Shown here: positions 12,061 to 61,892 of the stretch, piece by piece
How the letters are laid out: every line of letters begins with the position of its first letter
How positions within the stretch are numbered: position 1 is the stretch's first letter
Origin: Streptantibioticus ferralitis
GTDB lineage: Bacteria > Actinomycetota > Actinomycetes > Streptomycetales > Streptomycetaceae
Assembly: GCF_029223525.1 (NCBI RefSeq)
Contig: NZ_JARHTQ010000001.1
Location: 310,001-374,000, forward strand
Reading direction: 5' to 3'
DNA length: 64,000 nucleotides
Position numbers and translations under genes: made by a program
The notes under the pieces: model-generated
Database searches by the model: none
Seen by the model: only the letters and a program-made list of their open reading frames with translations
What the model was told of the DNA's origin: nothing

Positions 12061-12430
12061 CTACTGCTCCCATGCGATGGTGCGCCACGGACTGTTGGGA
12101 TCGGACATGAGGAGCCGGTGCGGCTCAAGGACGGTTTCGTACCATTCCCCGAACCCCTCATCATCGAAACGGATCACGCGCCCCAGCGCGTACCCGGCTG
12201 AGAGCTCCGCCCAAGAGGAGTAGTGCTTCCGGCACAGCGCGCCCGTCTGGCGAATCGCCGATTCGGCGACCTCGAACGAGCAGTACCGCGCGCCGAATCC
12301 CCAACGGGCCATGTTGACCGCACGCCCGAAGTCGTAGCCGACGGGCGAACGCGTGGGCCAGCTCCCCGACCAACGGACCGGTGCTCTTCGTCAGCAGAGC
12401 CGTAGGCTGGGGCCACCACCGGAAGGCCAT
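12061..12430 (-). pseudogene. DUF1266-like fragment, frameshifted
   Basis: The readable C-terminal part (12061-12312 and a little upstream) contains GYDFGRAVNMARWGFGARYC, LCRKHYSSWAELSAGYALGR and FGEWYETVLEPHRLLMSDP, ending near SPWRTIAW, resembling the DUF1266 family. The preceding GPLVGELAHAF is in a different frame, so a 1-nt shift lies near 12345-12355 and no full-length frame exists. Intact family members are much longer. Function is unknown. It is convergent with the toxin relic. Confidence 0.5.
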
Positions 12431-12473: not shown

Positions 12474-13046
12474 CTACCCCAGTGAAGAGGTAGAGCTTGC
12501 CGGAATTTTGTATGCAGCCGCCATGGATTCTTCAAAAATAACAACAAGAGAATCCGGCATATAAGTAAAACCGCCGCCCTTCGATTCACCAAGCGCGATG
12601 ACGACGCTCGATGAATTACAGAAATCAAGACGGAAAGACCAGGGCATCTCCACGCAACCCTCATTAGGAACATGCCATACTGGGGTGATGTCCGTAATAG
12701 TTTTTCCCAAAAACCTCGCCCATTCGACGTGATTGCTCACGTCGACAGCCTCACCCATCGGCCTAGCCCCCTGTTCACCATGACCCCTAAGCTCAATCGC
12801 CAAGCCTTCGTTGAGGCCATCCATGGCCCAGTCGAAGGCCAATACGGCGCCGCTGGCCATGACCAGTTCCACAGCCAGGTCGACTTCATGAGCCCGATCC
12901 GCCCTATGACCTTCGGGCCAGCTTTCGCCCTGCAGTGCCGCATACCGGACTTCGACCAGAACCTCACGCGACACTGCGGCCACTAGAGTCGCAAACTCAG
13001 TCCCATTATTCGACTGCGCACACCATGGCTGAATTGCAATTACCAC
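12474..13046 (-). CDS. Candidate immunity protein for the Rhs toxin
   Basis: A 190-residue soluble, acidic protein of no family I can name. It contains HEVDLAVELVMASGAVLAFDW, WARFLGKTITDITPVWHVP, SVVIALGE and FTYMPDSLVVIFEE, an alternating alpha/beta pattern like small immunity proteins. Its GTG start shares one base with the stop of the Rhs gene (TAGTG), so it is translationally coupled. Composition is clearly AT-richer than neighbours, typical of horizontally swapped toxin/immunity tips. Position directly after the toxin end is the main evidence for immunity; proof would be neutralisation of the toxin. Confidence 0.65.
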   Translation of the reverse strand: MVIAIQPWCAQSNNGTEFATLVAAVSREVLVEVRYAALQGESWPEGHRADRAHEVDLAVELVMASGAVLAFDWAMDGLNEGLAIELRGHGEQGARPMGEAVDVSNHVEWARFLGKTITDITPVWHVPNEGCVEMPWSFRLDFCNSSSVVIALGESKGGGFTYMPDSLVVIFEESMAAAYKIPASSTSSLG

Positions 13047-16000
13047 TAATACCGCCCAAAGTACTGGAAATTTCCACTGGCATCGAACGTCGCCCCAAAT
13101 CCTCGCCCACCAGCAGGATCCGGCATGATGTAGCGCGTTCCTCCTGCAAAGTTTCCGGAGGTCACCGACACCTGCACAGTATCGGGGCTATTCAGGATAT
13201 CATCAAGGAGGCCCTGGCCGGTCGAATCCAATTGTTTGCCGGGTACGACGGGTAGGTCACCGCGGTTCATGTGCTTCTGGTACTCGCGTCCCGCTCGGGT
13301 TAGCCTCCCCTTGTCTGGACGCTGCCCACTCTTTGACAATTCTTCTGGACACGGAGAAAGCCCAAGGAAGTCGGCTTCTACACACGGGTTTGTGACGTAC
13401 GCGTGATGGTTGGGCGCCGGGACGAGGCCCAGCGGATCCGGAGAGATGTACCGCCCGGTTTCCGGGTCATAGTAGCGAAAGTAGTTATAGTTCAGGCCTG
13501 TTTCAGGATCTTGATACTGGCCAGGAAAGCGTAGGGGGCAATCGGCAGAGAAATCTGTCTTTGGCGAGGGGAGTTGGGGTCCCCACAGCGTAGTGCGGGC
13601 TTGCCAGGCGATCTCACCGTTGAGCGTGAGCAGCTCCGTCGGACTGCCGATGGAGTCCGTCAAGACGGCGTGGAAGCGGGCCGGTTCGCCCAGGCGGGCG
13701 ATCAGGGAACCCGGGTCTGCCGGGGTTGCTCGGTCGGATTGGGTTAGGGGGCGGTGGGTTCCCGGGGCGTAGTCCCACGTCGTCGTGTGGCCGTCGTCGG
13801 CGGTCTGCTCCGCGACGCGGGTGTCGTCCCAGGTGAAGACGGTCTCGTCGGCCACCGAGCCGTCCTCGACCAGCCGCCGCTTCGCCACACGGCGGCCCAG
13901 TGGGTCGTACGCGTAGTGCCAGCGTTCGCCGTCAGGCGTTACCGCGTCCGTTAGGCGGTCTTCCGCGTTCCAGGAGAATGACCATGTTCGGGTTTGGCCG
14001 TTGAGGAGTTTGCGGGTCTTGCGGGTCAGGCGGCCTTGTGCGTCGTGTTCGTATGTGGTGCGGCCTGCGCGGTGGATGAGGGTGCCGGTGAATTCCCGGT
14101 CGCCTGCGGCGGGGTGGGCGGGGGCTTCGGCGCTGGTGAGGTTGCCTGCTTCGTCGTAGGCGTAGGTCTCGGTCCAGCCGTGCGCCGTAACTGCGGTTAC
14201 TCGGCCCGATTTGTTGAGGGTGAAGCGCCTTGTGCCTGCTGTCAGTTCGCGGATTTCGGTGAGCAGGCCGTCGGGGCGGTAGGCGTATGTGCGGTGTTGG
14301 AGGAGGAGTTCCTCCTCGCCGCTCGGCCGGTGCGTAACGGTTTGGGTGGTGAGGCGGTCTGTGCTGTCCCAGGCCTGGGTGAGGCGTAGGTCTTCGCCTA
14401 GGCGCCGTTCCACCTCGCGGCCCGCCGCGTCGTATGTGAGGGCCAGGGAACCGGCGTCCGTGCGCAGCTCGTTCGGGCGGCCCGCCGCGTCGTATGTCCA
14501 GTGGGAGACCGCGCCGCCGGGGGTCGTGCGCCGGACGCGGCGGCCGGTCGCGTCGTACGCGTACGTCATCGCGCGGCCGTTGACCGTCTCCGTCAGGACG
14601 CGGCCCAGCGCGTCCCGCTCCCACACCAGCTCCGCGTCGGGATTCGCGGCCCGGGCCAGTTGACCCGCCGCGTCGTACGCGAAGGTCGTCTCCGTGCCGT
14701 CATCCGTCGCCGTCGCCACGGTGCGGCCCAGTGCGTCGCGCGTGAACGACAGGCTCTCGCCCGCGCCGTTCGTGCGCGAGCTCAACTGACCTGCGGCGTC
14801 GTGCGCGTACGTCAGCCTGCGGCCGTTGAAGTCGGTTTCCGCTACCAGGCGGCCCGCCGCGTCGTACTCGTACGTCCACGTCAGGCCCTGCGGGTTGGTG
14901 ACGCCGGTCAGGTGTAGGTCCGTGTCGTACGTGAAGGCGTAGACCGTGCCGTCAGGGTCGGTGCGGGAGGCCGTGAGGTCGAAGTGGGTGGTGGTGTGGC
15001 GAACCGTGTTGCCCACGGGGTCGGTGTGGGAGACGAGGTTGCCCTCGCCGTCCCATTCCCAGCTCTCCCGTGCGCCGTCCGGCTGCTCGCGCCACTTGGG
15101 CTTGCCCTCGGTCGTCCAGCCCATGCGGGTGGCGTGACCCAGCGGGTCGGTGACTTCGACGACGCGGCCGAAGACGTCGCGGGTGACCGTGGTCGTGTTG
15201 CCGAGCGGATCCGTGACCGCGAGGGGCAGGCCAGCCGCGTCGCACGTGGCGCGCTGGACGTTGCCGAGGGCGTCGGTGATCGACGTGATGTGGCCGGACC
15301 CGTCGTAGGCGTACCGGGTCTCGGCGCCCGTCGGGTCGATCGAAACAAGCAGGTTGCCGGAGTCGTCGTACGTGTGGCGCCACACCGTGCCGCCGGGCTC
15401 GGTGACCTGTGTCGGTAGGTTCAGGGCGTTGTACGCGGCCTGGCCGATGGAGCCGTCCGGCAGGGTGACGGCGAGCAGGTTGCCCGCCTCGTCGTACGCG
15501 TAGCGCGTCGTGCGGCCCAGCGGGTCGGTGACCGACAGCCGGTGCTGGCCGTTGGGGTCCCACTCGGTGGTCGTGGTGTGGCCCAGTGGGTCGGTTTCGG
15601 CGGCCACCCGGCATGCGTCGTTGTAGCGGTAAACGCTCGTCTCGCCAAGCGAGTTGGTGTACGTGTTCGTACGGGTCTGCTCGTCGTAGGTGAAGGCCCC
15701 GGACATGAAGCCATCGGTGCCCTCGGTCCGCACCACCCGGCCGCGCTCGTCGTAGACGTACTCGAACCTCGTGCCGTTGCGGTCGGTCCAGGAGGTGATC
15801 CGGCCGTCCGCGTCGTATCCGAACCGCAGCGGCCTACCGCTGGAGTTGATGACCTCGGCCAGGTTTCCCGCTGCGTCATAGCCGTAGCGGACCAGGACCG
15901 TGCCCGGGGAGTCCGCGACCGGCCGGTACGGCGAGGGCGCCTCGTGGAGCAGCCGTAGCGCGGTGATGCGCGCGCCGTGGATGTCGACGGCGATGTGGTA

Positions 16001-17389
16001 GCCGCCGGAGTGCCGGATCGCGGTGGGGATTCCGGATGCGGTGCGGTCGATGTCGATGCGGTGGCCGTTGCGGTCCTCCATGGACTCCAGCGGTAGATCG
16101 ACGGTGTCGCCCGGCCTGACCGACGACGGGTGGGTGAAGGTGCGCACCACGCCGGTTGCCGGGTCCGTGATGGTCATCGCGCCGTCCGGGCGGCCGTCCC
16201 AGGCCAGCGCCAGCCGCGGGCCCCGCTCGGGCAGCACCGGTTGCCCGGCCCGCGGTACGGGATAGACCAGACGCTTGCCGTCCGTGGCCGCGAACACCAC
16301 ACCCCGGGCGTCGAGTTGCAGCCGTTCGTCCAGCGTCGAGGCCCATGAACGGCCGAACCAGCCACCAGCCCGGTACGAGGACAGGTGTGTCCGCTCGATC
16401 ACCAACGGGAGCTGACCCGGCAGGGTGACGTCGGTCTGCGTCATGAACATCGTGCCGGTCGCGATGTCGACCGGGTCGTTGCACGCCTCGGTCGAATTGG
16501 TGTCCCGCGCGTTCGCGGGCAGTTCGGTGTCGTCGGGGCGGATCGGGTCGGACGGCGGCTTTTCAACGTCCACAGTCGGCGGCTTGCCCGTCCCGCCGAG
16601 TCCGTCCAGATCGGTTGGCAGACCGGACAGCAGCGACGGGTCGACCCCGTCACCGAACACCCTCGGAAACGCCCCCGCCTCGATCGCCGCCTTCGTGGCA
16701 CCAGCCGCGCCACCGAAGATCGCCCCGGAGATCATCCCGTCCTTGGCGGAGGAGTTGAGCTCGTCCAAACTGAAGTGGTCCTGCAGACCAGCGGCCATCC
16801 GCAACGGCTGTGCGATCGCCGCGTCGACCGCCACCGACTCCACCCCGCCGAAGGCGGCGGAGGCCACCGCGGTGCCCAGGACCCCGGCGGCGGCCGCCGA
16901 GACCTCGATCCCCACGGTTCCCGCCAGTGTGATCACCTCGTCGGCCACCGCCAGCGCAGCACCCGACAGCGCGCCGCCGGACAAAGCCGCCGCCCCGATC
17001 GCCACGGCCAGCACGGCGATGTCGATCTCGATCCGATGCTCGATCTTCTTCCGAGCATGCTCCACGGCATCGGCATACTTCTCGAGCATCTCCGCCATCT
17101 GCTCGGACGCCTTGGCCACATCGTCCAACCAGCCCTTGTCCTTGCCACCGTGATAGCGGTGCCAGAACTTGGCGTAGGCGTCGACCGCCTCACCCTTGTT
17201 GTTGTGGATCAGCGCGCTCGACTTGCCGTCCGTCGCATGGCACACACCATCCACGGCCTTGGAGAACGTCCGCCAAGCCGTCGCCGCCTGCCGGCACTTG
17301 CCCGGATCACCCTCCGGCCACTGCATCCCCATGTGCTTGGCAAGCCAGCCACAACAGTCCTCGATGCTCGGCAGACCCAGGAAACTCAC
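13046..17389 (-). CDS. Rhs/YD-repeat polymorphic toxin
   Basis: A 1447-residue polymorphic toxin. Residues about 1-120 are a helical WXG-like N-domain; about 120-235 an Ala/Gly-rich hydrophobic stretch; about 305-380 a DUF6531-like domain (DPVDIATGTMFMTQTDVTLP). About 480-1240 holds many YD repeats (RYGYDAAGNL, TYAYDATGR and similar), which form a toxin-enclosing shell in known structures. The Rhs core motif GLNYNYFRYYDPETGRYISP is followed by DPLGL. The variable tip (about 1348-1447; DNA 13046-13348) is about 100 residues: RLTRAGREYQKH, GQGLLDDIL, GGRGFGATFDASGNFQYF. I cannot name the toxin family; a small nuclease is plausible. The GTG start overlaps the upstream WXG100-like gene. Confidence 0.92.
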   Translation of the reverse strand: MSFLGLPSIEDCCGWLAKHMGMQWPEGDPGKCRQAATAWRTFSKAVDGVCHATDGKSSALIHNNKGEAVDAYAKFWHRYHGGKDKGWLDDVAKASEQMAEMLEKYADAVEHARKKIEHRIEIDIAVLAVAIGAAALSGGALSGAALAVADEVITLAGTVGIEVSAAAAGVLGTAVASAAFGGVESVAVDAAIAQPLRMAAGLQDHFSLDELNSSAKDGMISGAIFGGAAGATKAAIEAGAFPRVFGDGVDPSLLSGLPTDLDGLGGTGKPPTVDVEKPPSDPIRPDDTELPANARDTNSTEACNDPVDIATGTMFMTQTDVTLPGQLPLVIERTHLSSYRAGGWFGRSWASTLDERLQLDARGVVFAATDGKRLVYPVPRAGQPVLPERGPRLALAWDGRPDGAMTITDPATGVVRTFTHPSSVRPGDTVDLPLESMEDRNGHRIDIDRTASGIPTAIRHSGGYHIAVDIHGARITALRLLHEAPSPYRPVADSPGTVLVRYGYDAAGNLAEVINSSGRPLRFGYDADGRITSWTDRNGTRFEYVYDERGRVVRTEGTDGFMSGAFTYDEQTRTNTYTNSLGETSVYRYNDACRVAAETDPLGHTTTTEWDPNGQHRLSVTDPLGRTTRYAYDEAGNLLAVTLPDGSIGQAAYNALNLPTQVTEPGGTVWRHTYDDSGNLLVSIDPTGAETRYAYDGSGHITSITDALGNVQRATCDAAGLPLAVTDPLGNTTTVTRDVFGRVVEVTDPLGHATRMGWTTEGKPKWREQPDGARESWEWDGEGNLVSHTDPVGNTVRHTTTHFDLTASRTDPDGTVYAFTYDTDLHLTGVTNPQGLTWTYEYDAAGRLVAETDFNGRRLTYAHDAAGQLSSRTNGAGESLSFTRDALGRTVATATDDGTETTFAYDAAGQLARAANPDAELVWERDALGRVLTETVNGRAMTYAYDATGRRVRRTTPGGAVSHWTYDAAGRPNELRTDAGSLALTYDAAGREVERRLGEDLRLTQAWDSTDRLTTQTVTHRPSGEEELLLQHRTYAYRPDGLLTEIRELTAGTRRFTLNKSGRVTAVTAHGWTETYAYDEAGNLTSAEAPAHPAAGDREFTGTLIHRAGRTTYEHDAQGRLTRKTRKLLNGQTRTWSFSWNAEDRLTDAVTPDGERWHYAYDPLGRRVAKRRLVEDGSVADETVFTWDDTRVAEQTADDGHTTTWDYAPGTHRPLTQSDRATPADPGSLIARLGEPARFHAVLTDSIGSPTELLTLNGEIAWQARTTLWGPQLPSPKTDFSADCPLRFPGQYQDPETGLNYNYFRYYDPETGRYISPDPLGLVPAPNHHAYVTNPCVEADFLGLSPCPEELSKSGQRPDKGRLTRAGREYQKHMNRGDLPVVPGKQLDSTGQGLLDDILNSPDTVQVSVTSGNFAGGTRYIMPDPAGGRGFGATFDASGNFQYFGRY

Positions 17390-17766
17390 TTGCCGCCCTT
17401 ACCCCCACCAGCGGGCGGAAGCTTCGCCCCCGCCTTCCTGAACATCTCCGCGACCTGATGGTCATTGCCCGCATGACCATCCGCCATGTCCTTCAATGCC
17501 TCGAAAATGCTCTCCAAGCCCTGCACCAGGATGCCGACCGCCTTGTCGATCGACGTCTTGCTGGGACCGTACGAGTCATGGAAGTTCCTGCCGATGTCGT
17601 CATGGCCCCACGGCGAACCCACGTCATCCAACGACTTCTTCAACGCCGACGCCGCATCCCCCAGCGCCTTGCTCTGCGTCTGGAACGTCGGCGCCGACGA
17701 CTTCAGATCAGCCACAGATATATGCAGGTCCGGTTCCTTGCCGCCCACGGCTCCCCCGTTTCCCAT
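17386..17766 (-). CDS. WXG100-like secretion partner
   Basis: A 126-residue helical protein starting MGNGGAVGGKEPDLHISVADL, with a helix-turn-helix hairpin: AASALKKSLDDVGSPWGHDD carries a Trp-Gly at the turn, and ALKDMADGHAGNDHQVAEMF follows. The layout and size fit ESX/WXG100-type proteins encoded before type VII-exported toxins. The ATG at 17766 has a purine-rich AGGGG before it; the open frame extends further upstream. Its TGA overlaps the GTG of the Rhs gene. It probably helps present the Rhs protein for export; this is inference. Confidence 0.7.
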   Translation of the reverse strand: MGNGGAVGGKEPDLHISVADLKSSAPTFQTQSKALGDAASALKKSLDDVGSPWGHDDIGRNFHDSYGPSKTSIDKAVGILVQGLESIFEALKDMADGHAGNDHQVAEMFRKAGAKLPPAGGGKGGK

Positions 17767-40118: not shown

Positions 40119-40129
40119 GCCCTAGACCG

Positions 40130-40254
40130 TACAGCGGCGCGAAGCGCCCCGATTGAGGGCGGTGGCGGGCGACGGGCGGGAGTACAGCGGCGCGAAGCGC
40201 CCCGATCGAGGGTGGTGGCGGGCGACGGGCGGGAGTACAGCGGCGCGCAGCGCC
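40130..40254. repeat. 53-bp tandem repeat
   Basis: Two full 53-bp units (40130-40182 and 40183-40235, starting TACAGCGGCGCGAAGCGCCC) differ at only two positions and are followed by a partial third copy from 40236. They lie directly upstream of the GT2 gene at 38538-40118. Confidence 0.75.
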
Positions 40255-42793: not shown

Positions 42794-43428
42794 GACATTC
42801 CTCCTTCTCGGACGTACATCTCCGGTCCGGATCGACAGAGGATCCTGACCTGGGATGGGAGAAGTGCTACGTCCTCGGGAAGGAGAGCGCCGTCATCGGC
42901 GGCCGTCGCGTGCAGGCGGACGACGCGTCCGAAGTATCGGCGATCACCCCCGAGCGACAACCACTGGCCACGCTCTCGCGCAACCTTGCGGACAGGCCCT
43001 GCCCGGGTGAGGCGGGGACCCCCCTGTCCAAGAGCGGCGGCGGGTGGCCGCGCGCCCTGCTCGGTGGGGAATCCTTCACATGGCGCCGACTGGCTGCCGG
43101 GCTGTGTGACGGACCGAGCGTGCGCCTGATCGTGGTCCATTCGCGGCCGGGGCACAAGGCCTTTCATTACCAGCGAGTAACGCCGAGATATCCGCGGTGC
43201 GACCGAGCAGCATAGTGCAGACACGGAGAGTGTCCGAGGGGCGGTCGCCAGAGCCCGACATGAAGGGGCATAGCGGGACAGAAAAACTCGCTTGACTTAC
43301 TAGGGGTAATGGCAGCCGCCTTTCATCAAGATTTGATAAAGGCGGCTACCGATCGCTATCCCACCCCGGCCCCTAGTGGCGCGGGGTGCCCGGACGTTGA
43401 CGCCCGGTCATCAACTGCCGATGTCCGG
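42794..43428. other. Non-coding region upstream of DUF6230
   Basis: 635 bp between the DUF6230 start and the thioredoxin-like gene end. It must hold the operon promoter. Frames such as 42910-43215 on the plus strand have no ribosome site or recognisable content. Apart from the hairpin at 43314 I see nothing definite. Confidence 0.5.
43314..43347 (-). terminator. Terminator after thioredoxin-like gene
   Basis: AGCCGCCTTT-C-ATCAA pairs with TTGATAAAGGCGGCT across a 3-nt loop (15 bp, one bulged C), about 80 bp past the stop of the gene ending at 43429. Confidence 0.7.
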
Positions 43429-45288: not shown

Positions 45289-45497
45289 CGCCTGCGGCGG
45301 GCGGGGGTGCGGTATCGCCTGCGGCGGGCGGAGGTACGCGCAGTTGCGGCGAGCCCCGGCGCGGTAACGCCCGCGGCAGGCGGAGGTACGCGCAGTTGCG
45401 GCGAGCCCCGGCGCGGTAACGCCCGCGGCAGGCGGAGGTACGCGCAGTTGCGGCGAGCCCCGGCGCGGTAACGCCCGCGGCGGGCGGGCGGGTTGCG
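45285..45497. repeat. 52-bp tandem repeat array
   Basis: Three full 52-bp units (45312-45363, 45364-45415, 45416-45467) starting GTAACGCCCGCGGCAGGCGG (first unit GTATCGCC) are flanked by partial copies at 45285 and 45468. Units two and three are identical. The array begins inside the stop codon of the TetR gene. Confidence 0.85.
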
Positions 45498-53842: not shown

Positions 53843-56800
53843 GTGCGGGGCTACGACCGCTACGAGGCTGACGACCACCTCTCGCAGTTCGAGGCCGAGA
53901 TGGAGCGGCTGAGGACGGAGCGGGACAAGGCCGTCGACCACGCAGACGATCTCGGCTACCAGGTCGAGGTGCTGCGCGCCAAGCTGCACGAGGCGCGGCG
54001 TCAGCTTGCCCAGCCGCGGGCGTACGAGAACGTCAGCCACCAGGCCGAGCAGTTGCTGCGCAACGCGCAGATCCAGGCCGACCAACTGCGTGCGGACGCC
54101 GAGCGCGAGTCGCGTGAGGCCCGCGCCAACACCCAGCGGATGCTCCAGGAGCAGGCCGAGCGGCAGTCCCAGCTGGAGGCCGAGTGGCATGCCGAGGCGG
54201 TCGCCCGGCGCCGCCGCCTCGACGAGGAACTGGCCGAACGCCGCAGCACTGTCGAGACCCACGTCAACGAAAACGTGGCGTGGGCCGAGCAGTTGCGCGC
54301 CCGCTCCGAGTCGCAGGCGCGCCGTCTGATGGACGAGTCGCGCACCGAGGCCGAGGCGGCACTGACCGCCGCCCGCACGGAAGCGGCCAGACTGGCCGAA
54401 CAGGCCCGCGATCGGCTGGAGTCGGCCGCCGTCGAGGCCCGCACCGAGGCCGAGACGATCTTGCGCCGGGCCCGTACCGACGCCGAGCGGCTGCTGACCC
54501 TCGCCGGGACGCAGGCCCAGGAAGCCACCGACCACGCCGAGCAGTTGCGCACCGGGGCGCGTACCGAGTCCGAGGAGGCGCGCCGCGAGGCCGCCGAGCT
54601 GGGCCGCCGCTCCGAACAGGCGCTGGCCGAGGCGGAGAGCGCCCTGCGGGAGGCGCGCGCCGAGGCCGAGCGGCTGCGGTCCGAGGCCGAGGAGACCGCC
54701 GCCAAGCGGCTGGCCAACGCCGAGGCGGACAACGAACAGCGCACCCGTACCGCGCGCGCCCAGATCGCCCGACTGGTGGCCGAGGCCACCAAGGAGGCGG
54801 AGGCACTCAAGGCGGAGGCCGAGCAGGCCCGCGACGACGCCCGCGCACAGGCCGAGCGGGCGGTCGCCGAGGCCCAGGAGGCGGCCCGGTCCGCGGCGGC
54901 CGAGGAGGCCACGGAACGGCTGGCCAAGGCCGCCCGTAGCGCCGAGGAGATCCTCGCCAAGGCCTCGCACGACGCCGAGGCGACCACCAAGTCGGCGGCA
55001 GAGGAGGCCGAACGGATCCGGCGCGAGGCCGACGCCGAGGCCGAACGGCTGCGCGCCGAGGCCGCGGAGACCGCCGAGCAGCTCAAGGGCGCGGCCAAGG
55101 ACGACACCAAGGAATACCGCGCAAAGACCGTCGAGTTGCAGGAGGAGGCGCGCCGACTGCGCGGCGAGGCCGAGCAGTTGCGCGCCGAGGCCGTCGCCGA
55201 GGGCGAGCGGATCCGCGGTGAGGCACGCCGGGAGGCGCTGCAGCAGATCGAGGAGGCGGCGGGCACCGCCGAGGAACTGCTCGCCAAGGCCCGTACCGAC
55301 GCCGACGAGCTGCGCCAAGGCGCCGCCACCGAGGCCGACCGGGTACGCGCCGAGGCCGTCGAGCGCGCCGCGACGCTGCGCCGCCAGGCCGAGGAGGCGC
55401 TGGAGCGGGCGGGCGGCGAGGCCGAGGAATTGCGCGGCGAGGCCGAGGAGGCCGCCGGGCAGCTCAGGGACGACGCCGAGCGGGCGGCCCAGCAGGTGCG
55501 CGAGGACGCCGAGGAGGCGGCGCGCCGGCTGCACGAGGATGCCCGCGCGGACCTCGAACGGCAACGTGCCGAGCTCCAGCAGCGGTTGACCGCGGCTGAG
55601 GAGGCCCTGCACGCCGCGGGTGACGAGGCGGACCGGCTGCGTCGCGAGGCGGCCGAGGAGGCCGAGCGGCTGCGCACCGAGGCGGCTGAGCGGGCCCGGG
55701 CGCTCAGCACCGAGGCCGAGGAGGAGGCCGAGCGGCTGCGCACCGAGGCGGCGGCCGACGCCTCCCAGGCGCGCGCCGAAGGCGAGGCGATCGCGGTACG
55801 GCTGCGCGGTGAAGCCACCGCGGAGGCCGAGGAGTTGCGTACCCAGGCGCGCGAGGCGGCCGACCGGCTGCGCACCGAGGCGGCGGCCACCGCGGAGCGG
55901 ACCGAGGCCGAGGCGGCCGAGGCGCTGGCGGCGGCCCGCGAGGAGGCGGCCAGGCGCCGCCGGGAGGCCGAGGAGCTGCTCGCCGACGCGCGCGCCGAGG
56001 CGGAGCAGGAGCGCGGCCAGGCACGCGAGCAGAGCGAGGAGTTGCTGGCCGCCGCCCGCAAGCGGGTGGAGGACGCGGACGCGGAGGCCGAGCGGCTGGT
56101 CGCCGAGGCGGAGCAGCGTGCCGCGGAGCTGGTGGCGGCGGCCGAGCAGACCGCCCAGCAGGTACGGGAAGCGGTCGCCGGGCTGCACGAGCAGGCCGAG
56201 GAGGAGATCGCCGGGCTGCGGTCGGCGGCCGAGCACGCCGCGGAGCGGCTGCGCATCGAGGCCCGCGAGGACGCCGACCGGCTGCACGCCGAGGCCAACG
56301 CCGAGCGGGAGCGGGCGGGTTCGGACGCGGTACGCATCCGGAGCGAGGCCCACGAGGAGGCCCAGCTCGCCAAGGCGCTCGCCGAGCGGACCGTCACCGA
56401 GGCTCTCGCCGAGGCCGAGCGGATCCGCGACGAGGCCCGCGAGGACGCCAACCGCAAGCGCAGCGAAGCCGCGCAGCAGGCCGACGAGTTGGTCTCCGGC
56501 GCCGCCACCGAGGCCGAGCGGCTGCACGCCGAGGCCGAGGAGCGGGTGGCGCGCGCGGAGCGGGACGCCGAGCGCATCACCATCGGGGCGGAGAAGCTGC
56601 GTGAGGCGGCCGAGGAGCACGCCGCGCAGACCCGCGCCGAGACCGAGCGGGCGGCGGCAGCGGCGACCGCCGAAGCCGAGCGCATCGTCGACGAGGCCCG
56701 CGAGGTGGCCAACCGCAAGCGCAGCGAAGCCGCCGAGCAGGCCGACGAGTTGATCGGCAAGGCGACCACCGAGGCCGAGCGGATCAGCAACGAGGCGCAG

Positions 56801-57580
56801 GAGGCGGCGGTCAGGGCCGCCGCCACCGCGGAGGAGCAGGCGGACGCCATGGTCGGCGCCGCCCGCGCCGAGGCCGAACGCGTCATCACCGAGGCGCGCG
56901 GCGAGGCCAACGCCATGGTGGAGCAGTCCCGCACCGACGCGGACACGCTGCTGGCCGAGGCCCGCAGGGACGCCACCTCCACCAGGGAGCGGACCGACGA
57001 GCTACGCGCCCGGGTGGAGGCCGAGGTCGAGGAGTTGCACGAGCGGGCCCGCAAGGAGTCCGCGGAGGCGATGAAGTCGGCGGGCGAGCGGGTCGACAGG
57101 CTGGTGACCGTCGCCACCGAGCAGTTGACGGAGGCCGAGGAGAAGGCCCGCAAGCTCGTCGCGGACGCCGAGGAGGCGGCCGAGGAACTGTCGACGGCGG
57201 CGAACAGCGAGGCGAGCAAGGTCCGCATCGCGGCGGTGAAGAAGGCCGAGGGGCTGATCAAGGAAGCCGGTCAGAAGAAGACCGAGGCCGAGCGGACCGC
57301 GGAGCGCACCATCGCCGAGGCCCGCGCCGAGGCGGAGCGTATTGTCGACGAGGGCCGTCGCGAGCTCGATGTCCTCAAGCGCCGCCGCGAGGACATCAAC
57401 GCGGAGATCTCCCGAGTTCAGGATGTGTTGGAGGCACTGGAGTCGTTCGAGGGAACCGGGTCCGGCGGGAGCAAGAAGTCGGGTGACCGCAGGGACGGAC
57501 AGGGCGCGGTAAAGGCGGGTGCCGGCGCCGGTGTCACTCGTTCGGGTGGCAAGCGCTCCGATGACACGCCACTCGATTGA
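53843..57580 (+). CDS. scy: Scy, polarisome coiled-coil scaffold
   Basis: A 1245-residue, almost wholly helical protein that organises hyphal tip growth with DivIVA and FilP in Streptomyces (established). The N-terminus RGYDRYEADDHLSQFEAEMERL and YQVEVLRAKLHEARRQLAQP matches Scy. From about residue 60 to 1220 the sequence is Ala/Glu/Arg-rich coiled coil with recurring EAERLR, AEELR, AEAERI units, consistent with the published 51-residue coiled-coil repeat. The end is KRRREDINAEISRVQDVLEAL plus a basic Gly-rich tail. GTG 53843 is my choice; GTG 53810 would add 11 residues. Known Scy is slightly longer. Tandem Scy-FilP order is typical. Confidence 0.92.
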   Translation: MRGYDRYEADDHLSQFEAEMERLRTERDKAVDHADDLGYQVEVLRAKLHEARRQLAQPRAYENVSHQAEQLLRNAQIQADQLRADAERESREARANTQRMLQEQAERQSQLEAEWHAEAVARRRRLDEELAERRSTVETHVNENVAWAEQLRARSESQARRLMDESRTEAEAALTAARTEAARLAEQARDRLESAAVEARTEAETILRRARTDAERLLTLAGTQAQEATDHAEQLRTGARTESEEARREAAELGRRSEQALAEAESALREARAEAERLRSEAEETAAKRLANAEADNEQRTRTARAQIARLVAEATKEAEALKAEAEQARDDARAQAERAVAEAQEAARSAAAEEATERLAKAARSAEEILAKASHDAEATTKSAAEEAERIRREADAEAERLRAEAAETAEQLKGAAKDDTKEYRAKTVELQEEARRLRGEAEQLRAEAVAEGERIRGEARREALQQIEEAAGTAEELLAKARTDADELRQGAATEADRVRAEAVERAATLRRQAEEALERAGGEAEELRGEAEEAAGQLRDDAERAAQQVREDAEEAARRLHEDARADLERQRAELQQRLTAAEEALHAAGDEADRLRREAAEEAERLRTEAAERARALSTEAEEEAERLRTEAAADASQARAEGEAIAVRLRGEATAEAEELRTQAREAADRLRTEAAATAERTEAEAAEALAAAREEAARRRREAEELLADARAEAEQERGQAREQSEELLAAARKRVEDADAEAERLVAEAEQRAAELVAAAEQTAQQVREAVAGLHEQAEEEIAGLRSAAEHAAERLRIEAREDADRLHAEANAERERAGSDAVRIRSEAHEEAQLAKALAERTVTEALAEAERIRDEAREDANRKRSEAAQQADELVSGAATEAERLHAEAEERVARAERDAERITIGAEKLREAAEEHAAQTRAETERAAAAATAEAERIVDEAREVANRKRSEAAEQADELIGKATTEAERISNEAQEAAVRAAATAEEQADAMVGAARAEAERVITEARGEANAMVEQSRTDADTLLAEARRDATSTRERTDELRARVEAEVEELHERARKESAEAMKSAGERVDRLVTVATEQLTEAEEKARKLVADAEEAAEELSTAANSEASKVRIAAVKKAEGLIKEAGQKKTEAERTAERTIAEARAEAERIVDEGRRELDVLKRRREDINAEISRVQDVLEALESFEGTGSGGSKKSGDRRDGQGAVKAGAGAGVTRSGGKRSDDTPLD

Positions 57581-61391: not shown

Positions 61392-61892
61392 GCACGGGGG
61401 GACGGGGGGCATCGCCCCATCTGCCGGTAGCGGGCGGAGCACGATCGAGGCACCGGGCCATACCAAGCGATACGGCGAGAAGACGGCCGTCTACACCCTG
61501 TCGTTCCAGGTACGTCCGGACACCGTCACCGGCTTCCCGGTCCCAACAGCGGGACCCGGGGCCGCAGCCCCAAAGCGGGGACCCAGAGCCGCAACCCCCA
61601 AAACAGGCCCGGGGGCGCAGCCCCAAAGCGGGGGCCAGGGGGCGCAGCCCCAAAGCGGGGGCCAGGGGGCGCAGCCCCAAAGCGGGGGCCAGGGGGCGCA
61701 GCCCCAAAGCGGGGGCCAGGGGCGCAGCCCCGAAGCGGGGGCCAGGGGGCGCAGCCCCAAAGCGGGGGCCAGGGGCGCAGCCCCCAAAGCGAGGCCGGGG
61801 CCGGAGCCCCCAAGCGAGGCCGGGGGGCGCAGCCCCCAAGCGGGGCCCGGGGCCGGAGCCCCCAAGCGGGGGCCCGGGGGCGCAGCCCCCGG
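61392..61892. other. Intergenic region with ABC relic and 27-bp array
   Basis: 501 bp with no intact gene. It holds the remains of an ABC ATPase N-terminus (61438-61564) and a 27-bp repeat array (61556-61893). Minus-strand frames across the array encode only 9-residue repeats such as GAAPPGPRF and are not considered genes. Confidence 0.75.
61438..61564 (+). pseudogene. Relic of an ABC transporter ATPase N-terminus
   Basis: One frame reads STIEAPGHTKRYGEKTAVYT, then LSFQVRPDTVTGF, clearly the first strand region of an ABC-2-type ATPase like the one at 58788. A 1-nt shift then gives GPNSGT in place of GPNGAGKST, so the sequence is lost inside Walker A and runs into the tandem array. No start codon remains. 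It is probably a duplicated fragment. Confidence 0.7.

Follow-up and report, generated by a model that had tools for sequence, protein, structure and literature searches.

Three overlapping genes on the minus strand of a 64,000-nucleotide window, by which we mean the whole stretch of DNA analysed here, raise the question as to whether they encode a helper, a toxin and its antidote and, if so, whether the toxin and the putative antidote can be assigned to any known family. The host, a soil actinobacterium, has a genome 8.8 Mb in size and belongs to the actinobacterial family that includes Streptomyces. The gene order is a WXG100-like gene, then an Rhs gene, then a gene for a 190-aa protein. All three open reading frames described in an earlier note on this sequence are present on that strand with the overlaps it had reported, the TGA of the WXG100-like gene being overlapped by the GTG start of the Rhs gene (GTGA, 4 nt) and the TAG of the Rhs gene having one base in common with the GTG of the 190-aa gene (TAGTG). 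The features referred to throughout are as follows.

17386..17766, minus strand: WXG100-like small protein of 126 aa, probable T7SS partner or helper (PF06013 E=4.8e-4, under the curated cut-off)
13046..17389, minus strand: Rhs polymorphic toxin of 1447 aa with a GTG start (RHS repeats, DUF6531, WXG100_2, Rhs_assc_core)
16955..17350, minus strand: N-terminal WXG100-like domain, Rhs residues 14-145 (PF25547 match)
13358..13558, minus strand: RHS repeat-associated core (TIGR03696), Rhs residues 1278-1344, which marks the conserved boundary ahead of the variable tip
13049..13348, minus strand: C-terminal toxin tip, residues 1348-1447, predicted to be colicin D/CdiA-CT PABL017-like (BECR-type), with a conserved AGxxxxKHxxR motif
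12474..13046, minus strand: candidate immunity gene, 190 aa with a GTG start, belonging to a family that the libraries searched do not model
12070..12339, minus strand: frameshifted DUF1266 remnant immediately following the immunity gene (PF06889 E=1.3e-25, read through with a stop)

Conservation of the gene junctions

Overlaps this short are common in dense bacterial operons, so that the overlap alone indicates only that the genes are coupled. In order to determine whether the overlaps mean more than chance we looked at the conservation of the junctions across genomes. The helper/Rhs junction is GTGA in a sister species (G002:C52, L097) and ATGA in S. caatingaensis (L017), where the TAGTG junction between tip and immunity gene also recurs. 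It is these conserved junctions, together with the presence of the 190-aa gene after the tip in 14 of 14 genomes with a full-length close tip, that lift the operon above chance.

The Rhs carrier and its putative T7SS partner

The long open reading frame encodes some twenty RHS repeats (PF05593, E=3.6e-103) and a DUF6531 domain (E=6.8e-24), and its Rhs core (TIGR03696, Rhs_assc_core, E=3.4e-19) ends at residue 1344 and is followed by a separate tip of 100 aa. RHS/YD repeats with a core that ends at a variable tip identify it as an Rhs polymorphic toxin. At the N-terminus a WXG100-like domain (WXG100_2, PF25547) scores above the cut-off with E=7e-16, and the upstream helper matches PF06013 (WXG100) below the Pfam cut-off, its position being conserved in both L017 and L097, where homologues with 45% and 72% identity respectively precede an Rhs gene of this type. 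A WXG100-like partner gene ahead of a protein that begins with a WXG100-like domain is the layout expected of a T7SS effector, and the operon has it. The host genome contains three T7SS EccC genes above the TIGR03924 cut-off, on contigs other than that of the operon. Export of the Rhs protein via T7SS is therefore plausible given the WXG100-like parts, the helper conserved in place and the three EccC genes in the genome.

There are three Rhs loci in the host genome. A second intact Rhs gene lies approximately 96 kb away (L079, G000:C22:222500-232500); its tip is deaminase-like and the gene that follows encodes 337 aa, and a tip and partner similar to this pair occur in G101 (L069).

Relatives and likely class of the toxin tip

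According to the earlier note the tip/immunity pair was not one that could be named. The tip (residues 1348-1447) matches no model in Pfam, NCBIfam, PHROGs or PADLOC, its distant relatives match no Pfam or NCBIfam family, and a single-sequence search of the tip against the PDB gave no match. Colicin_D (PF11429) matched no member of the tip family and was absent from 198 Actinomycetota genomes. Relatives close to the tip (64-80% identity) come from Streptomyces, Actinopolyspora and Bailinhaonella, and distant ones (30-55%) from Herbiconiux, Protochlamydia and Leptospira as well as from further genomes of the host's family. No tip relatives were found in phage records and a single one among viral contigs, where positions 2401-3330 of L037 encode a phage head-like (MuF-type) protein that ends in a distant relative of the tip; a small ORF after this fusion may be its immunity gene. 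Ten diverse members have A19, K25, H26, R29, A86 and F97 (tip numbering) in common, and the window tip retains every residue that is invariant in the alignment.

A profile of these ten diverse members (A2) matched 6d7y_A, the PABL017 CdiA-CT toxin, with E=6.8e-6. When compared using hhalign, the profile of the close family (A1) matched five independent distant members at 98.8% and those distant members matched 6d7y at 96.9%. In a direct profile comparison the close family alone gave no match to 6d7y, and the link between the tip and PABL017 is thus a transitive one. At the level of sequence profiles the tip is homologous, via intermediates, to the CdiA-CT tRNase of P. aeruginosa PABL017, which a review places among the BECR toxins, with tRNA-Gln and tRNA-Pro as targets, H3372 as active-site residue and colicin D as nearest relative outside CDI (PMC9086364). 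As judged from these distant relatives, tRNA would also be the substrate of the tip. The tip can now be placed as CdiA-CT PABL017/colicin D-like.

Structure prediction of residues 1348-1447, which the earlier note had proposed as a check, gave an AlphaFold model of moderate quality (pLDDT 71) with the last 60 residues at 83-92. The order of elements is two helices, a short strand, a further helix and four strands, and the model has the layout of the BECR fold, in which N-terminal helices precede a four-stranded meander. Colicin D accounts for each of the four best structural matches (Z 4.9-5.5, 61-67 residues aligned), values that are low in absolute terms, the unrelated AvrB reaching Z 4.2, at most 1.3 below the best. 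Foldseek alone returned no significant match for either the tip model or the immunity model; that 6d7y is missing from the structural matches to the tip does not exclude it. The KH pair is invariant in the ten diverse relatives and lies in a segment with pLDDT below 50, so that the active site is not placed in the model. Taken together, the homology to 6d7y via intermediates and colicin D as the best structural match make a BECR-type tRNase the most likely identity of the tip.

The BECR fold also includes rRNases and mRNases, and with an active site that lacks a confident model the tip might share the fold and act on rRNA or mRNA, or as a broad RNase, the pair being otherwise alike. We regard this as rather unlikely given that the nearest solved relative of the tip and its top structural matches are all tRNases.

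Linkage of the candidate immunity gene to the tip

In all 14 genomes that carry a full-length close tip (at least 64% identical), the tip is followed by a gene homologous to the 190-aa gene (49-65% identical), which starts between -4 and +3 nt from the tip stop. The carriers differ: a WXG-Rhs protein carries the pair in the window and in L017, L023 has a different T7SS-like Rhs protein, and most of the others are of HINT type. On a Herbiconiux plasmid a tip with 55% identity is followed 3 nt on by a 182-aa homologue (hhalign E=9e-6) that is missing from the gene table of the record. The tip and the 190-aa gene are inherited together on carriers that are unrelated, and within one carrier they are replaced together, in the manner of a cassette.

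Close homologues of the 190-aa gene away from any Rhs gene had been named beforehand as evidence against the pairing. What we found of this kind is limited to remnants and one remote relative. In L028 and G124 a homologue is kept beside a truncated tip, the L028 copy being intact next to a broken tip; just 47 residues of the homologue remain in G216; and on a Deinococcus plasmid a remote homologue (26%) lies amid small genes, with no Rhs gene in the stretch read. Homologues without an Rhs gene are to be expected where immunity genes become orphaned, and every one of the full-length close tips is paired.

From its place in the operon and its linkage to the tip, the 190-aa protein would neutralise the tip by binding. 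Because its predicted fold is RNA-associated and not a known immunity fold, and because binding to the tip is itself a prediction, the protein could instead be a passenger, acting on the tip for instance as adaptor, activator or chaperone. We consider this very unlikely, for the gene sits directly after the tip in the standard position of an immunity gene, where another tip takes that slot in the operon it has a different, unrelated small gene after it, and the intact copy beside the broken tip in L028 fits protection better than activation.

Family and predicted fold of the immunity protein

The immunity family is what is new here, with no model matching it in Pfam, NCBIfam, PHROGs or PADLOC. 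Searched as a single sequence against the PDB the 190-aa protein gave no match, nor did a profile of the family (A4) against PDB sequences, and comparison of its two halves for a sequence duplication was negative (hhalign E=0.27).

The AlphaFold model of this partner, the second structure prediction that had been suggested, is also of moderate quality (pLDDT 73, pTM 0.79; the other four models have pLDDT 39-66) and appears NFACT-N-like. Its best structural matches are NFACT-N of Rqc2, PavA, NEMF and an S. aureus homologue (Z 8.4, 8.1, 8.1 and 7.7), all four of them NFACT proteins. They are followed by MutM, which has a related fold, at Z 4.2, and the next unrelated match is at 3.4. A search for NFACT_N across 119 Actinomycetota genomes found none over the cut-off, with weak sub-cut-off matches confined to profile positions 166-262. 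The resemblance of the predicted fold to the tRNA/ribosome-associated NFACT-N domain is a lead of moderate strength.

The literature searched held no text linking 'immunity protein' with NFACT, and none linking an immunity protein with formamidopyrimidine, toxin and fold; NFACT-N/Fpg-N is a tRNA- or nucleic-acid-binding fold that is unreported for immunity proteins in that literature. It is conceivable, though unlikely, that the family uses such a fold both to plug the toxin and to recognise or shield the tRNA, either as substrate or in complex with the toxin.

Exchange of the tip/immunity cassette

Compared with the window, the sister species (G002:C52, L097) has a helper that is 72% identical and an Rhs N-terminus that is 79% identical, followed in L097 by a tip and an immunity gene unrelated to those of the window. 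The same delivery end with another tip/immunity pair is the pattern that exchange of a toxin/immunity cassette leaves. In none of the 29 related Rhs loci examined does the window's tip follow the core, the tips after the core being different, and the small gene behind such a tip is likewise a different, unrelated one. The immunity gene of G002:C52 has homologues elsewhere, in L017 1.6 kb downstream of a window-type tip (48%) and in G001 downstream of a third tip (42%). Homologues of the G002:C52 type behind other tips, at L017 7941-8375 and L098 3644-4078, are displaced or orphan immunity genes. Directly downstream of the operon, the DUF1266 remnant is possibly a decayed orphan immunity gene, and no other copy of it was found among the loci compared.

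GC content is approximately 0.70 in the Rhs body and falls to 0.60-0.62 in the part that holds the tip and immunity gene (12-14 kb), a drop that is in line with separate acquisition. This same fall, along with the frameshift in the downstream DUF1266 gene, might suggest a recent or degenerate acquisition and an operon that is decayed or silent, which is highly improbable in view of three intact, tightly coupled ORFs and a tip with all alignment-invariant residues. The helper, toxin and antidote order that had been proposed is borne out by the domains found, by the joint travel of the tip and 190-aa gene across carriers and by the sister species with a different tip/immunity pair.

Proposed mechanism

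In Rhs proteins the RHS repeats form a shell around the C-terminal toxin. Here the helper and the WXG100-like domain that opens the Rhs protein would probably pair and direct export by T7SS, the RHS-repeat shell presumably enclosing the last 100 residues until the tip is released into a competitor. The tip would then act as a metal-independent ribonuclease of the colicin D/CdiA-CT PABL017 type and cut tRNA, cleavage being attributed to the conserved KH...R residues in its N-terminal part. The co-translated 190-aa protein would bind and block the tip in the producing cell and its siblings, and comparison between genomes shows that the tip and immunity gene move between carriers as one exchangeable cassette. 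That the locus as a whole is such a WXG100/T7SS-associated Rhs operon, with a tRNase tip, a blocking 190-aa immunity protein and an exchangeable cassette, we hold to be likely.

Other features of the window

Outside the operon the window contains a tandem array at 61542-61889 (6.5 copies of a 53-base GC-rich unit), shorter tandem arrays at 45309-45487 and 40129-40254, and a region of strong AT skew (0.42-0.52) with 33-base repeats at 54001-57000, probably the gene of a coiled-coil protein. A match to the Rfam che1 sRNA (92.5 bits) lies at 42938-43030 on the minus strand.

Significance and comparison with known systems

The type of weapon is ordinary; the tip/immunity pair is unnamed in the libraries searched and the unusual part is the predicted immunity fold. 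An unannotated actinobacterial Rhs tip is tied to a tRNA-cutting toxin family with a solved member, and through the tip and the unmodelled immunity family genes annotated as 'hypothetical' gain a testable function. The swap in the sister species and the displaced downstream immunity gene illustrate how warheads change and the delivery end stays. Were the NFACT-like fold to be true, a fold of RNA quality control would have been recruited as an antidote. In its predicted fold (model pLDDT 73), without a sequence match, the immunity protein would be like NFACT-N (PavA, Rqc2, NEMF) and the N-terminal domain of Fpg/MutM.

Among T7SS-linked toxins of Gram-positive bacteria, the Listeria EssC-variant Rhs toxin (PMC10327511) and the LXG toxins of B. 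subtilis (PMC8321402) likewise have a large T7SS-linked carrier, a C-terminal toxin and an immunity gene; the window differs in its actinobacterial host, in the fusion of WXG100_2 to Rhs and in a tip/immunity pair that lies outside the family libraries. The C-terminal tRNase domain of colicin D gives the best structural matches to the tip model, as described above, although the window tip has no PF11429 match and delivery differs. The CdiA-CT/CdiI system of PABL017 (PDB 6d7y) is unlike the window in its CDI two-partner delivery in a Gram-negative and in its immunity protein, whose order of secondary structure elements is not that of the 190-aa protein, whereas its toxin domain is homologous to the tip via intermediates over most of its length, with a KH-R motif and a C-terminal GxF...F motif common to both.
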